Origin: Planctomycetota bacterium
GTDB taxonomy: Bacteria > Planctomycetota > PUPC01 > DSUN01
Length of the DNA stretch: 6,276 nucleotides
Reading direction: 5' to 3'
Assembly: GCA_016872875.1 (NCBI GenBank)
Contig: VGYW01000466.1
Location: forward strand, 1-6,276
The notes under the pieces are model-generated. The model was given only the letters and a program-made list of their open reading frames with translations. It was not told where the DNA came from and searched no databases. A program made the position numbers and the translations under genes. This document shows positions 576 to 5,238 of this stretch, piece after piece (positions within the stretch are counted from its first letter, which is position 1; each line of letters begins with the position of its first letter).

Positions 576-1562
576 GTGGAAGCCAACGGCGTGTACCTCT
601 ATTGCTTCGCACGCCCCGGGGCAGCCCGCGGCATCGCGGCACCAGGGGTGGGCACCTCGGGCGCTGTCTCCGAAGTGCAGCTCGGCCCCCTGGCCGCCGT
701 GGTCAGTCCTGTCTCCCTCGAAGAGTTCAGCGAAGCGCCAGGTCACAAGAACACCCAGAACCCCGATTGGCTCATCCCGCGCGCCTGCCGCCACCAGCGG
801 GTGGTGCGGGAGGCGATGGCACGCTCCGGCGTCCTGCCAGTGAGGTTCGGGGCCGTCTTCTCCTCCGAGCAGCGCCTCGCCGAGCTCGTGCAGGCGAAGC
901 ACGCGGAGATAGCCGACTTCCTCGACTCAGTAGAAGGCAAAGAAGAGTGGGCCGTCAAGGGCACGCTCGATCCCGCCCGAGCCACGGCACGGCTGCGAGA
1001 AACGGACCGCGGAGCCAGATCAGAAATCAGAAATCAGAAATCAGAAATGGCCAGCCCCGGCGCGCGCTACCTTGCGGACAGGAAGGCCCAGCTCGCAGCG
1101 CGCGAACGCCTTAGGCCCTGGTGCCTGGCCGTGGCAGACCGGGTGGCCGCCGAACTGGATGCCGCGGCCGAGGCCGCACGTCCTCTGAAGCTGTATCCCT
1201 GTGGCAACTCCACGCAGGCGGGACAGATGTTCTTCCACAGGGCGTTTCTCCTCCCGCGGGAGAGCGTGGGGGCGTTCCTCGAACACGTCGAGCGCATCGG
1301 CCGGGAGATCGCCCAAGAGGGCCTTGCGCTGGCACCCTCCGGGCCGTGGCCCCCCTACTCCTTTGCCCCATCGCTCTGGGAGGCAGCGGAGGGTTGTGGC
1401 GCAGCTTCCATAGAGGCCCAACAAGAGAGCGGGGGGCCTCAGGCGGCGGGGGTGGGGGGCCAAGCGCCGCAAGTGGCTGTGCCACAAGGGGCAACGGCGA
1501 AAGCGGGGTCGCACGCGCCCTCTGGCACGGCCATTGCTCAGGCAGTGAGCAACCTCTTGTGA
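576..1562 (+). CDS. gvpF: Gas vesicle protein GvpF/GvpL family, divergent member with long C-terminal tail
   Basis: GvpF/L proteins are minor shell or assembly components of gas vesicles, and GvpF of some organisms binds GvpA. The 328-aa product starts with the family's N-terminal strand (GVYLYCFARP, 5-14) and has AAVVSPV (40-46), where relatives have AAVVSDV. The helix-strand region with RHQRVVREAM and VLPVRFGAVF lies at 72-94. Then come SVEGKEEWAVKG (118-129), YLADRKAQL (165-173) and the C-terminal core ending GPWPPYSF (256-263), a hallmark of the family. The GTG start at 576 is chosen for the AAGGGGGAG ribosome site at 561-569 and because the conserved strand follows at once. Oddities: residues 148-158 (RSEIRNQKSEM) are encoded by a 7-bp tandem repeat, and residues 264-328 form a G/A/Q-rich tail beyond the family core whose DNA contains a sigma-54 promoter. 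GvpF versus GvpL cannot be settled from this sequence. Confidence 0.9.
   Translation: MEANGVYLYCFARPGAARGIAAPGVGTSGAVSEVQLGPLAAVVSPVSLEEFSEAPGHKNTQNPDWLIPRACRHQRVVREAMARSGVLPVRFGAVFSSEQRLAELVQAKHAEIADFLDSVEGKEEWAVKGTLDPARATARLRETDRGARSEIRNQKSEMASPGARYLADRKAQLAARERLRPWCLAVADRVAAELDAAAEAARPLKLYPCGNSTQAGQMFFHRAFLLPRESVGAFLEHVERIGREIAQEGLALAPSGPWPPYSFAPSLWEAAEGCGAASIEAQQESGGPQAAGVGGQAPQVAVPQGATAKAGSHAPSGTAIAQAVSNLL
1019..1048 (+). repeat. Four tandem copies of the heptamer ATCAGAA inside gvpF/L
   Basis: ATCAGAA is repeated four times without error at 1019-1046, followed by AT. The array keeps the gvpF/L frame open and gives residues of the type SEIRNQKSE, between the GKEEW region and the YLADRKAQ helix. 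It is A-rich in an otherwise GC-rich gene, so composition marks it as an insertion or slippage-grown tract. The encoded peptide resembles low-value inserts I associate with repeat-rich Planctomycetes-like genomes. That parallel is from memory and unchecked. Confidence 0.85.
1394..1487 (+). promoter_or_regulatory. Possible upstream activator sites for the gvpA sigma-54 promoter
   Basis: TTGTGGC at 1394-1400 has its exact reverse complement, GCCACAA, at 1481-1487. The latter is part of a compact dyad GTGGC-TGT-GCCAC at 1473-1485. Relative to a predicted transcription start near 1549, these lie around -155 to -149 and -76 to -62, a range used by sigma-54 enhancer-binding proteins. They fall in the part of gvpF/L that codes for the unconserved tail. 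Short GC-rich dyads arise by chance, so this is a weak call with no specific activator implied. Confidence 0.25.
1522..1538 (+). promoter_or_regulatory. Sigma-54 (RpoN) promoter for gvpA, inside the 3' end of gvpF/L
   Basis: The sequence cTGGCACGgccaTTGCt matches the extended sigma-54 consensus YTGGCACGRNNNTTGCW at every defined position. The -24 GG is at 1524-1525 and the -12 GC at 1536-1537, with the required 12-bp offset. Transcription would start about 12 bases past the GC, near 1549, giving a leader of roughly 207 nt before the gvpA ATG. It overlaps codons for residues 316-321 of the GvpF/L tail. Sigma-54 promoters need an ATP-hydrolysing enhancer-binding protein, none of which is encoded in the window. 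Confidence 0.8.
1534..1552 (+). repeat. 7-bp inverted repeat overlapping the -12 box
   Basis: TTGCTCA (1534-1540), spacer GGCAG, then TGAGCAA (1546-1552). The left arm contains the TTGC of the sigma-54 -12 element and the right arm covers the expected start point. It could be a repressor operator or a chance dyad. As RNA it would make a small hairpin at the end of gvpF/L without a U-tract. Confidence 0.4.
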
Positions 1563-1755
1563 CGGGGCGTGCTCCCACTGGCTGCTCCCTCGGGAGGGCT
1601 GACGTTGCGAAGCGAGCGATGCACGGGATGTCCAGAATCCATGAAACCACCGGTGGTCGTGGGCGGGGCGGGCGGACGGGACCGCGGACTCGTCGAGTTG
1701 CCCTCCCCAGTGTATCGAAGGTGCCATTCCAACCCCTTGAAAGGAGGTAGAACCA
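1549..1755 (+). promoter_or_regulatory. Long gvpA leader region
   Basis: This covers the predicted 5' leader of the sigma-54 transcript. It includes the last codons of gvpF/L and the 193-bp gap with no supportable gene. It holds a perfect 12-bp palindrome ACCACCGGTGGT (1646-1657), a G-rich stretch at about 1659-1680, and ends in AAAGGAGGT (1741-1749), an essentially ideal ribosome binding site placed 7 bases from the gvpA ATG. No known riboswitch was recognised. A leader role in stability or translation of the gvpA message is inference. Confidence 0.45.
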
Positions 1756-1977
1756 ATGGCACAAGTGCAGAAGTCGACGGACAGCTCGAGCCTGGCTGAG
1801 GTCGTGGACCGCATCCTCGACAAGGGCATCGTGATCGATGCGTGGGTCAAGGTGGCCCTCGTCGGCATCGAGCTGCTCTCCATCGAGGCCCGCGTCGTGA
1901 TCGCGTCGGTCGAGACGTACCTCAAGTACGCCGAGGCCATCGGCCTCACGGCCACCGCGGCTGCCCCGGCGGCCTGA
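1756..1977 (+). CDS. gvpA: Gas vesicle major structural protein GvpA
   Basis: GvpA is the small hydrophobic subunit that polymerises into the ribs of the gas vesicle shell. The 73-aa product matches the very conserved family sequence throughout: [18 protein letters not shown] (13-30), [18 protein letters not shown] (33-50) and [15 protein letters not shown] (51-65), followed by a short A/P-rich end. This is the classic helix-strand-strand-helix fold with the usual length of about 70 residues. The ATG at 1756 is fixed by AAAGGAGGT at 1741-1749, the strongest ribosome site in the window, as fits the most abundant product of such operons. The gene has its own sigma-54 promoter upstream and a strong hairpin 24 bp after its stop. 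GvpJ and GvpM paralogs are less likely because the match to GvpA itself is nearly complete, with no long C-terminal extension. Confidence 0.98.
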
Positions 1978-2198: not shown

Positions 2199-2705
2199 AT
2201 GGGAGCAATGACCGAGCAGATGGAAGCCCTGACGAACGGGATTTTCAGGGCCGCGCGTGACCGCCGGGCCTTCGTCAAGGAACTCAAGGAGACTGTCCCA
2301 CCGATGCGGGCCCGCTTCCGGGAGGCCCACGCTGAGATGGCTCGGAAGTCCAGAGCCGAGCGCTCGGCGTTCCTGGCCGACCTGAAAGCCAAGGTGGCCG
2401 AGTTGCAGGAAGGCTTCCGCGCCGCTCACGCCGAAATGGCCAGCGAGGTGCGCGGAACTCTAGAGGCGGGCGAGGCCGCCAGGCAGCAGGAGGCACAGGC
2501 CGGCCGTGCTCAGCGACTCGACTTCGTGCGCAACCTCAGGGAAGATGTGGCGCACCTGCTGGGCGAGTTCGCGGCTGACATCGAAGGCGCCCGCCGAGCT
2601 TGGTTCGGCTCCACACCTGTGGCTGGGCCGGCCGACCAAGGAGAAGAAGCGCCGGCGCCCGCACCCAAGGCCAAGAAGGCCAAGAGGACCAAGATGTCCC
2701 GTTAG
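2199..2705 (+). CDS. gvpC: GvpC-like protein with 33-residue helical repeats
   Basis: GvpC proteins bind the outside of the GvpA shell and stiffen it through tandem amphipathic repeats, 33 residues long in cyanobacteria. This 168-aa product shows the same period: F25 and F58 are 33 apart, as are F40/F73 and AHAEMA 43-48/76-81. Each unit follows the pattern F-x3-L-x3-V-x6-F: F25/L29/V33/F40, F58/L62/V66/F73, and a third copy F109/L113/V117/F124 after an 18-residue insertion rich in A, E and Q. There is no cysteine, signal peptide or membrane segment. The C-terminus is A/P-rich, then strongly basic (KAKKAKRTK). The ATG at 2199 is chosen for the GGAG at 2187-2190; the longer open frame upstream runs through hairpin DNA and gvpA. 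Placement directly after gvpA fits GvpC. Identity rests on repeat period and position rather than on sequence match, so a generic coiled-coil accessory protein remains possible. Confidence 0.65.
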   Translation: MGAMTEQMEALTNGIFRAARDRRAFVKELKETVPPMRARFREAHAEMARKSRAERSAFLADLKAKVAELQEGFRAAHAEMASEVRGTLEAGEAARQQEAQAGRAQRLDFVRNLREDVAHLLGEFAADIEGARRAWFGSTPVAGPADQGEEAPAPAPKAKKAKRTKMSR

Positions 2706-2749: not shown

Positions 2750-3163
2750 ATGTATCGCAGGGGGCCTGCCCCGAGCGGAGCCGAGGGGATAGCAGCGAAG
2801 CAACGAGCCACGGTGAAGGTTCCCTGCACCTTCTGCCGAGGCTCGGGCAAGGACCCCTTCGGTGTCATGTCTGCTCTTTCTGCCTGTCCCGTTTGCGCGG
2901 GGAGAGGCGTCACAGAGGTCCGGGCCCCCAATGTGCGCTGCGCCCATTGCAGGGGGACTGGTGCGATCAAGCGCTTCCGCTGCACCGTGTGCGGCGGCAC
3001 AGGGTGTCTCCCCGCGCCGGAGAACCCGACCCTGGTATGCCCGCACTGCTGGGGCTCGGGTGACGACCGTTCGGAGCCGGCCATGGCCTGCTTGGCATGT
3101 CACGGCCGCGGACACATCCAGGCACAGGCCGCAAACGCAGAAAAGGAGGAATACAGTGGGTGA
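2750..3163 (+). CDS. DnaJ-type zinc-finger protein without J domain (first copy, six CXXC motifs)
   Basis: The 137-aa product is almost wholly made of CXXCXGXG-type motifs: CTFCRGSG (C26/C29), CPVCAGRG (C46/C49), CAHCRGTG (C64/C67), CTVCGGTG (C78/C81), CPHCWGSG (C97/C100) and CLACHGRG (C114/C117). DnaJ/Hsp40 has four of these, binding two zinc ions and helping bind unfolded client proteins. Here there are six, enough for three zinc sites, and no J domain, so it cannot by itself stimulate DnaK in the usual way. The ATG at 2750 follows GGAGGAG (2738-2744). Its stop overlaps the gvpN start by 8 bases, which implies coupled translation. A related protein lies at 4822-5238. A chaperone-like role for hydrophobic Gvp proteins is inference. 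Residues 7-16 are encoded by a possible interspersed repeat. Confidence 0.85.
   Translation: MYRRGPAPSGAEGIAAKQRATVKVPCTFCRGSGKDPFGVMSALSACPVCAGRGVTEVRAPNVRCAHCRGTGAIKRFRCTVCGGTGCLPAPENPTLVCPHCWGSGDDRSEPAMACLACHGRGHIQAQAANAEKEEYSG
2769..2788 (+). repeat. Possible interspersed repeat of the GAGCGGAGCCGAGG type
   Basis: A near-palindromic stretch begins CCCCGAGCGG and ends AGCCGAGGGG, inside the N-terminal codons of the zinc-finger protein (PAPSGAEG). It resembles a short element of the form GAGCGGAGTCGAAGGG that I recall as dispersed in several GC-rich genomes. The paralog at 4822 has no such segment. Only one copy is in the window, so repeat status is unproven. Confidence 0.35.
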
Positions 3164-4214
3164 CAATGCCGCCAGCCCGGCTCGGGGCAGCATGGTGAGG
3201 GTTCAGATCGATGGCGACAACATCGAGCCCGAGGCCAGCGAGGAGTTCGTCCTTACGCCTTATGTCGAGGCGCTCACACAGCGCGCTATGGCCTATCTCG
3301 AAGCGGGCTACCCGGTCCATTTCGCCGGCCAAGCTGGAACTGGCAAGACCACTCTTGCATTCCACGTTGCCGCCAAGCTCGGTCGGCCAGTCTCCCTCAT
3401 TCACGGGGACGACGAGTTTGGGAGTTCCGACCTAGTGGGCCGAGACGCCGGCTACCGCAAGTACCGGCTCATTGACAACTTCATCCACTCGGTGCTGAAG
3501 ACCGAGGAAGAGGTCAAGACCCTGTGGGTGGACAACCGTCTGACCACGGCCTGCGAGAACGGCTACACCCTGATCTATGACGAGTTCACCCGCTCCAGGC
3601 CGGAGGCCAACAACGCGCTCCTGAGCATCCTCTCCGAGAAGATCCTCAACCTCCCGAAGCTCCGCAGAACAGGTGAGGGCTACCTGGAGGTCCACCCCCA
3701 CTTCCGGGCCATCTTCACCTCGAACCCCGAGGAGTATGCTGGCGTCCACAAGACCCAGGATGCGTTGATGGACCGGCTCATCACCATCCGCCTGGGCCAC
3801 TTCGACCGGGACACCGAGGTCCGCATCACGATGGCGAAATCGGGCGTCACTGAAGCCGCCGCCCAGACGATTGTAGACATCGTGCGCGCGCTGCGCGATG
3901 TTGGCGTCAAGAACCAGCGGCCCACCATCCGCGCCTCCATCGCCATCGCCCGCATCCTCGCCAGCAATGGCGCGCGCCCCCGGTCGAACGACCCTGTGTT
4001 CCAGTGGGTATGCCAGGACGTGCTGGCTAGCATCGAGACCGCGAAGGTGACCCGAGCGGGCGCGTCCCTCATGCCTCAGAGGGTGCAGGAGGTCATCGAG
4101 AAAATCTGTGGCTCGCCCAGAACCAGGCGCAACGCAACAGGGCGTAGCGCACGCCAAGCGAACGGAGAAAACACGTGCGGGCATGTCTTCGGAGCAAGCC
4201 CCGAAAGGGGCTGA
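3156..4214 (+). CDS. gvpN: Gas vesicle ATPase GvpN (AAA+)
   Basis: GvpN is a MoxR-like AAA+ ATPase needed for full enlargement of gas vesicles. The 352-aa product has Walker A GQAGTGKTT (58-66, K64), the GvpN signature HGDDEFGSSDLVG (83-95), Walker B TLIYDE (138-143), the following segment FTRSRPEANNALLSILSEK (144-162), a sensor-1 type SN in FTSNPEEYAG (187-196) and a DRL motif at 206-208. The GTG at 3156 is preferred over the ATG at 3192 because AAAAGGAGGA (3141-3150) lies just upstream. The open frame extending back to 2862 overlaps the zinc-finger gene and is rejected. It overlaps that gene by 8 bp and the next frame by 40 bp. The last 34 or so residues (from about 319) are polar and unlike the compact end of the family, and the stop codon lies at the end of a GNRA-loop hairpin. 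Confidence 0.95.
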   Translation: MGDNAASPARGSMVRVQIDGDNIEPEASEEFVLTPYVEALTQRAMAYLEAGYPVHFAGQAGTGKTTLAFHVAAKLGRPVSLIHGDDEFGSSDLVGRDAGYRKYRLIDNFIHSVLKTEEEVKTLWVDNRLTTACENGYTLIYDEFTRSRPEANNALLSILSEKILNLPKLRRTGEGYLEVHPHFRAIFTSNPEEYAGVHKTQDALMDRLITIRLGHFDRDTEVRITMAKSGVTEAAAQTIVDIVRALRDVGVKNQRPTIRASIAIARILASNGARPRSNDPVFQWVCQDVLASIETAKVTRAGASLMPQRVQEVIEKICGSPRTRRNATGRSARQANGENTCGHVFGASPERG

Positions 4215-4821: not shown

Positions 4822-5238
4822 ATGGAGTACGCTCAGAAGATCCTTGCCAAGTCCGGGCAGCTTGAAGGAAAACGGCGCCGCAACAAGCGTTACGTCCACT
4901 CGGTTGCCTGTGCCTACTGTGGGGGCAACGGCGTGGACCCAATGTTCGGGAGCGGCAGCCACTGCCCCGTCTGCGGCGGAGCCCGTCGGATCAAAGTCGC
5001 ACCCCCGGTCGTCACCTGCTTGAGGTGTTCCGGCACAGGGCGCGAAGGCGGGAGGCTGAGCTGCCTGGCCTGTCGAGGCACAGGGGTAGCGTCGGTCCGC
5101 AAGGACGCCACCACGTGCCCCAAGTGCAAGGGCACAGGGAAAGATGGGGTCTTTTACTGTTCCCCGTGCAAGGGCCAGGGCATCGCTTCACCCGGCCTCC
5201 AACCGGAAAGGCGCTCACATGGCGAGCATTCTGGATAG
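4822..5238 (+). CDS. DnaJ-type zinc-finger protein without J domain (second copy)
   Basis: This 138-aa relative of the protein at 2750-3163 has the same layout of six CXXC pairs: CAYCGGNG (C30/C33), CPVCGGAR (C48/C51), CLRCSGTG (C66/C69), CLACRGTG (C81/C84), CPKCKGTG (C99/C102) and CSPCKGQG (C113/C116). All twelve cysteines are present, but the second motif has lost its trailing glycine (AR in place of a G-x-G ending). The N-terminus differs from the first copy, being a basic stretch GKRRRNKRY (16-24). The ATG at 4822 follows GAAAGG (4806-4811), and the stop overlaps the GvpO start by 20 bp. The pair looks like an old duplication on either side of gvpN and the two unknown genes. Zinc binding is a family expectation; a Gvp-client chaperone role is inference. 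Confidence 0.85.
   Translation: MEYAQKILAKSGQLEGKRRRNKRYVHSVACAYCGGNGVDPMFGSGSHCPVCGGARRIKVAPPVVTCLRCSGTGREGGRLSCLACRGTGVASVRKDATTCPKCKGTGKDGVFYCSPCKGQGIASPGLQPERRSHGEHSG

Follow-up and report, generated by a model that had tools for sequence, protein, structure and literature searches.

Gene layout and position of the motif

The gas-vesicle (gvp) gene cluster on this planctomycete contig raises the question of how gvpA is controlled, and whether a promoter for it lies inside the gene that precedes it. We analysed a stretch of 6276 bases with 66% G+C (hereafter the window), which carries the cluster on the plus strand (Table 1). The initial annotation had placed an exact sigma-54 consensus, correctly spaced and on the gvpA-sense strand, in the 3' end of gvpF/L ahead of gvpA. 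Both the motif and its location were confirmed. The sequence CTGGCACGGCCATTGCT satisfies all defined positions of the consensus YTGGCACGRNNNTTGCW, taken as used in that annotation and compatible with the published form TGGCAC-N5-7-TTGCT (PMC12316311), and it is the sole exact match in the window.

The motif starts 234 nt upstream of the gvpA ATG. With the C of the -12 GC placed at 1537, transcription would start near 1549 and the 5' leader would be about 207 nt long, against about 63–70 nt predicted in other clusters. A search of this predicted leader returned no Rfam match, and its folding was not above that of shuffled sequences.

Table 1. Features of the window, with the evidence on which each is placed.
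Feature	Position	Strand	Basis
Partial AAA ATPase	to 524	+	ORF list, Pfam scan
gvpF/L, motif in its 3' end	576–1562	+	ORF; PF06386, E = 1.7e-53
GvpF/L C-terminal extension covering the motif	1386–1559 (start approximate)	+	Protein alignment
Candidate activator sites (weak): TGTGGC at 1395, inverse GCCACA at 1481	1394–1487	+	Inverted repeat
Sigma-54 consensus match CTGGCACGGCCATTGCT	1522–1538	+	Exact match
-24 element TGGCAC	1523–1528	+	Sequence
-12 element TTGC	1534–1537	+	Sequence; GG-to-GC gap of 10 bases
Predicted transcript start	1549	+	Sigma-54 promoter geometry, C1537 taken as -12
Predicted gvpA 5' leader, ~207 nt, AAAGGAGGT ahead of ATG	1549–1755	+	Sequence
gvpA	1756–1977	+	PF00741, E = 2.1e-16
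Uncharacterised protein	2199–2705	+	
DnaJ-zinc-finger-like protein	2750–3163	+	
gvpN	3156–4214	+	Name taken from homologues
Small genes	between gvpN and second DnaJ-like gene	+	
Second DnaJ-like protein	4822–5238	+	
Second gvpF/L	from 5795	+	

Some other features of the cluster were recorded. The two DnaJ-zinc-finger-like proteins are 37% identical over 106 positions, and the Pfam scan found no J-domain match in either; it is possible that they are accessory factors. Within gvpF/L, an ATCAGAA tandem repeat (4.3 copies, 1019–1048) encodes SEIRNQKSE; similar peptides also occur in the proteins P0122 and P0123, and the repeat resembles a dispersed element inserted into gvpF/L. Immediately 3' of gvpA are two strong hairpins (2002–2050 and 2074–2136), one with the stem GTTCCCCGGC...GCCGGGGAAC and the other a 26-nt inverted repeat with 85% complementarity. 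The region 1978–2160 folds more strongly than 200 of 200 shuffles (z = −4.0), and the hairpins could limit read-through or stabilise the gvpA mRNA.

Rarity of the motif

Exact matches to YTGGCACGRNNNTTGCW numbered one in the window and none in 200 dinucleotide-preserving shuffles. Under a first-order Markov model, 5.8 × 10−4 exact 17-mers are expected per window on both strands, and the core TGGCAC-N5-TTGC is expected 3.4 × 10−4 times on the gvpA-sense strand in the 400 nt before gvpA. In codon shuffles of gvpF/L, 13 of 20,000 synonymous-codon shuffles contained the 17-mer and 119 the core, while whole-codon shuffles yielded the 17-mer in 0 and the core in 5 of 20,000. These raw figures overstate the significance, because the motif was picked among many recognisable motifs. 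A chance origin of the motif is unlikely.

With up to three mismatches allowed, 3 matches were observed in the window against 3.35 expected. Since this count is at chance level, the weaker sigma-54-like matches are uninformative, and those elsewhere in the window were rejected as sites.

Had the motif arisen by chance in G+C-rich coding DNA, transcription of gvpA would come either from gvpF/L, by read-through, or from an ordinary promoter within 1563–1755. About 14 chance core matches are expected per 5 Mb of such DNA (first-order Markov), and the order of gvpF/L and gvpA on one strand permits read-through. However, the core is rarely expected so close ahead of gvpA, and no sigma-70-type match was found in the window with an E. 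coli-style consensus. We regard this explanation as unlikely.

Overlap with the gvpF/L coding region

The motif is hidden in gvpF/L because a C-terminal extension of about 58 residues in the ORF covers the site. Two of nine aligned GvpF/L proteins, that of the window and P0122, carry this extension over the site, and the other seven stop before it. P0122 is known as a protein only and is 68% identical to the window's GvpF/L; the closest named relative is P0125, a protein of a Planctomycetota MAG (67% identity), which points to a planctomycete host. Searches for further relatives returned little: the extension alone as query retrieved only the window's own protein and missed P0122 too, a GvpF/L search of genome contigs had a distant Bacteroidetes MAG as its sole match (26%), and one scan of viral contigs found none.

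At the motif site the window encodes SGTAIA and P0122 FGTTLA. All three amino-acid changes can be accommodated where the consensus is degenerate (Y, R and N), so the motif could be intact in P0122. We applied a mask of the same kind over all aligned positions and counted the alignment windows that stay motif-compatible: 50 of 50 unchanged windows, 32 of 94 with one change and 7 of 83 with two. Only 2 of 49 windows with three changes remained compatible, and the motif site is one of these two. Counted over the extension alone, compatible windows numbered 10 of 61. The compatibility of P0122, seen in one relative at the protein level, favours a constraint on the DNA and argues against a chance match. 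The peptide AQxVSNLL, downstream of the motif, is likewise conserved in P0122, so a constraint at the protein level is also possible. The alignment suggests that the gvpF/L ORF grew over a promoter formerly in the gvpF/L–gvpA spacer.

The position inside a coding region calls up a different explanation, in which the site is a true sigma-54 site that serves something other than gvpA: an intragenic site acting in interference or for a small RNA, or one that is idle. Such sites are common in Salmonella, where 41 of 70 sigma-54 sites are intragenic and 4 of 8 tested intragenic sites were active with a test activator (PMC3844500). However, the motif is on the gvpA strand and close upstream of the gene, and in other clusters the sites stand immediately before gvpA. 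We consider this reading very improbable.

Sigma-54 sites in other gas-vesicle clusters

The phylum of G001 (Bacteroidetes) was surveyed in 395 genomes, 38 of which have PF00741; the sigma-54 DNA-binding domain PF04552 was found in 37 of these 38. The order of G095 comprises 98 genomes, 34 of them with a match to the window's GvpA, and 30 were examined after G292, G146, G265 and G190 were left out for weak or fragment matches. A site was scored if both GG and GC were present, with at most four mismatches. In the group with MAVEKT-type gvpA (20 genomes, G178 being omitted for its 43 nt of upstream sequence), a TGGCA-N7-TGC site was found in 15 of 19 testable genomes, always 90–95 nt before the ATG (loci L071, L073–L076, L078–L081, L083, L084 and L087–L090). 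G076, with 2 nt upstream in the main scan, was scored from a separate scan, and G158 was scored as site-less despite a 4-mismatch match upstream in L050.

Alignment of 13 of 14 chosen gvpA upstream regions (L075 was too short) showed TGGCA and TGC to be invariant and the stretch further upstream to be unconserved. The invariance of GG and GC in these rows is by construction, because the scan demanded both. Matches with up to four mismatches occur 5–9 times per 18–20 kb in four site-bearing loci; they are not unique there, so the evidential weight rests on the fixed position.

In the leaders of 13 gvpA genes of this order (L071, L073, L074, L076, L078–L081, L083, L084, L087, L088 and L090), an element GAGG..A..CCGTC.CTC is conserved; a GACGG stretch often lies downstream and could base-pair with this element.

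The order also has a second gvpA group, and none of its 11 rows (10 genomes) had the common site at 90–95 nt. Two exceptional matches lie further away, 224 nt before gvpA with four mismatches in L067 (G339) and 214 nt with two mismatches in L068 (G238); both imply a long leader, as in the window.

Outside this order, the plasmid gvp clusters of Methylocella tundrae and Methylosinus sp. C49 (L035, L036) carry sigma-54 activator, kinase and receiver genes. A TGGC-N7-TTGC site precedes gvpA by 97 nt in Methylocella and 90 nt in Methylosinus, with frequencies among 200 shuffles of 0.01 and 0.005, respectively. The methanotroph plasmids show the pairing of site and activator in weaker form. In the gvp clusters of Spartinivicinus and Octadecabacter, no sigma-54 activator is annotated and no site was found.

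A 4-mismatch match ahead of Nostoc gvpA was reached by 0 of 200 shuffles, and the Nostoc gvp stretch has no annotated activator. This match is most likely due to chance, because no PF04552 match was obtained in the cyanobacterial genome used as a control and gvpA of N. punctiforme is SigJ-dependent (PMC6495340). The case indicates that a lone weak match proves little; a 3-mismatch match lies ahead of a different gvp gene as well (L031).

Comparable sites precede gvpA in most testable MAVEKT-type genomes and in the two plasmids; none was found at the corresponding place in the second gvpA group, and none in Spartinivicinus and Octadecabacter. The clusters that lack the site are compatible with a chance match in the window, as is the control of gas vesicles by other regulators: besides SigJ, these are CtrA in Cereibacter, where the link to RpoN3 is indirect, via a ctrA repressor (PMC11999139), and RegA in Rhodobacter capsulatus (PMC5359404). 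A chance match is made less likely by the sigma-54 sites that turn up ahead of gvpA in further lineages.

Activator genes and candidate activator sites

The NtrC-type activator domain PF00158 was searched in all 15 site-bearing genomes. Five of them (G253, G387, G331, G218 and G355) were excluded from the count because their contigs end within the gvp cluster. In 8 of the 10 testable genomes an NtrC-type activator gene with a strong PF00158 match was found beside the cluster; it lies 1.6–1.7 kb beyond the last gvp match in seven genomes, and in G095 the distance is 6.0 kb. In G166 and G347, no PF00158 gene lies beside the cluster though the contig continues. The activator proteins in four of the eight positive genomes have receiver, PF00158 and HTH_8 (Fis-type HTH) domains and are 66–83% identical to one another.

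Among site-less genomes, 0 of 10 had an activator within 10 kb, contig reach being checked in part of them; the difference from 8 of 10 gives a Fisher p-value of 7 × 10−4 with kinship ignored. G158 was kept out of this comparison because of a contig end. In G020 and G391, which lack a sigma-54 site, an activator-like gene lies close to gvp, and G238 and G339 have no PF00158 gene on their gvp contigs. With these four added, the activator was present in 2 of 14 site-less genomes (Fisher, p = 0.003).

None of the 10 window proteins scanned has PF00158. Upstream of the motif, the TGTGGC inverted repeat and a further TGTGGC at 1200 are a lead only as activator sites: the hexamer occurs 3 times in 1200–1521 against 0.23 expected, it was chosen post hoc, and the GCCACA site at 1481 is not kept by the P0122 protein.

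Proposed control of gvpA

It is likely, judging from the sequence comparisons above, that the motif is a functional sigma-54 promoter for gvpA. We infer the binding of sigma-54, the start site, the activator and the history of ORF growth. Sigma-54 RNA polymerase would sit on the -24/-12 element as a closed complex, and an NtrC-type enhancer-binding protein, bound further upstream within gvpF/L, would open the complex by ATP hydrolysis. The transcript would begin near the predicted start, with its long leader, and would cover gvpA and perhaps downstream genes. The promoter was probably located in the gvpF/L–gvpA spacer originally, and the gvpF/L ORF would later have extended across it.

The initial annotation had put gvpA under sigma-54 and an enhancer-binding protein, tied to nitrogen, carbon or surface-structure signals. 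The promoter part is supported by the exact site, by its compatibility with P0122 and by comparable gvpA sites that often have an NtrC-type gene nearby. The proposed signals found no support; nothing that we found points to nitrogen or carbon.

A broader reading, which we offer tentatively as a little short of an even prospect, is that gas vesicles are repeatedly switched by sigma-54 together with an NtrC-type activator dedicated to them, in gammaproteobacteria, methanotrophic alphaproteobacteria, the Bacteroidota-side order and planctomycetes. This switch would have been gained or lost largely with the activator gene, and the planctomycete promoter would have been overgrown by the gvpF/L frame. 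If so, vesicle formation in several lineages would be set by an ATP-dependent, signal-reading activator, often encoded beside the cluster. The buoyancy signal would become testable, the promoter would offer a handle for inducible gas-vesicle expression, and gvpA would join the targets of the sigma-54 regulons of planctomycetes, which are reported to exist in this phylum, Pirellula strain 1 included (PMC12316311). The wider interest is that sigma-54 sites with local activators recur across several gvp lineages.

Comparison with known systems

Like the window, the Bacteroidota-side order has TGGCA-N7-TGC upstream of gvpA, the full TGGCA being seen in the 13 rows that were aligned. However, its site stands 90–95 nt from the ATG in 15 of 15 cases and mostly has TATGC at -12, whereas the window has TTGC and a distance of 234 nt.

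The Methylocella and Methylosinus clusters are similar to the window in GvpA (89% and 86% identical, respectively), in the gvpL/F gene upstream of gvpA and in the candidate -24/-12 site. They differ in their weaker sites (three mismatches), their short leader and the genes for a sigma-54 activator, a kinase and a receiver that precede gvpA. The intragenic sigma-54 promoters of Salmonella likewise lie within coding sequence, and there they were demonstrated by ChIP and reporters (PMC3844500).

The closest experimental precedent is Serratia sp. ATCC 39006, in which the start of gvpA1 was mapped by 5'RACE, a sigma-54 consensus site lies upstream and control is exerted by the NtrC-like GvrA (PMC4982088). 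Gas vesicles were reportedly lost in an rpoN insertion mutant (PMC11778176, citing Hill 2021). The initial remark that few gas-vesicle systems have a described sigma-54 control fits this picture: in the extracts of the literature searched, this was the one experimental case found, and no other sigma-54-controlled case was recognised. In Serratia as in the window, the gas-vesicle cluster has a site of the sigma-54 consensus upstream of its (first) gvpA. In Serratia, however, the locus includes the activator genes gvrA–gvrC, whereas no activator was found among the window proteins scanned, and the window places its site within the upstream gvpF/L ORF and has a long predicted leader. Sigma-54 control of gvpA is thus already established in Serratia 39006, and the window is probably a further instance of it, not a new type of control.
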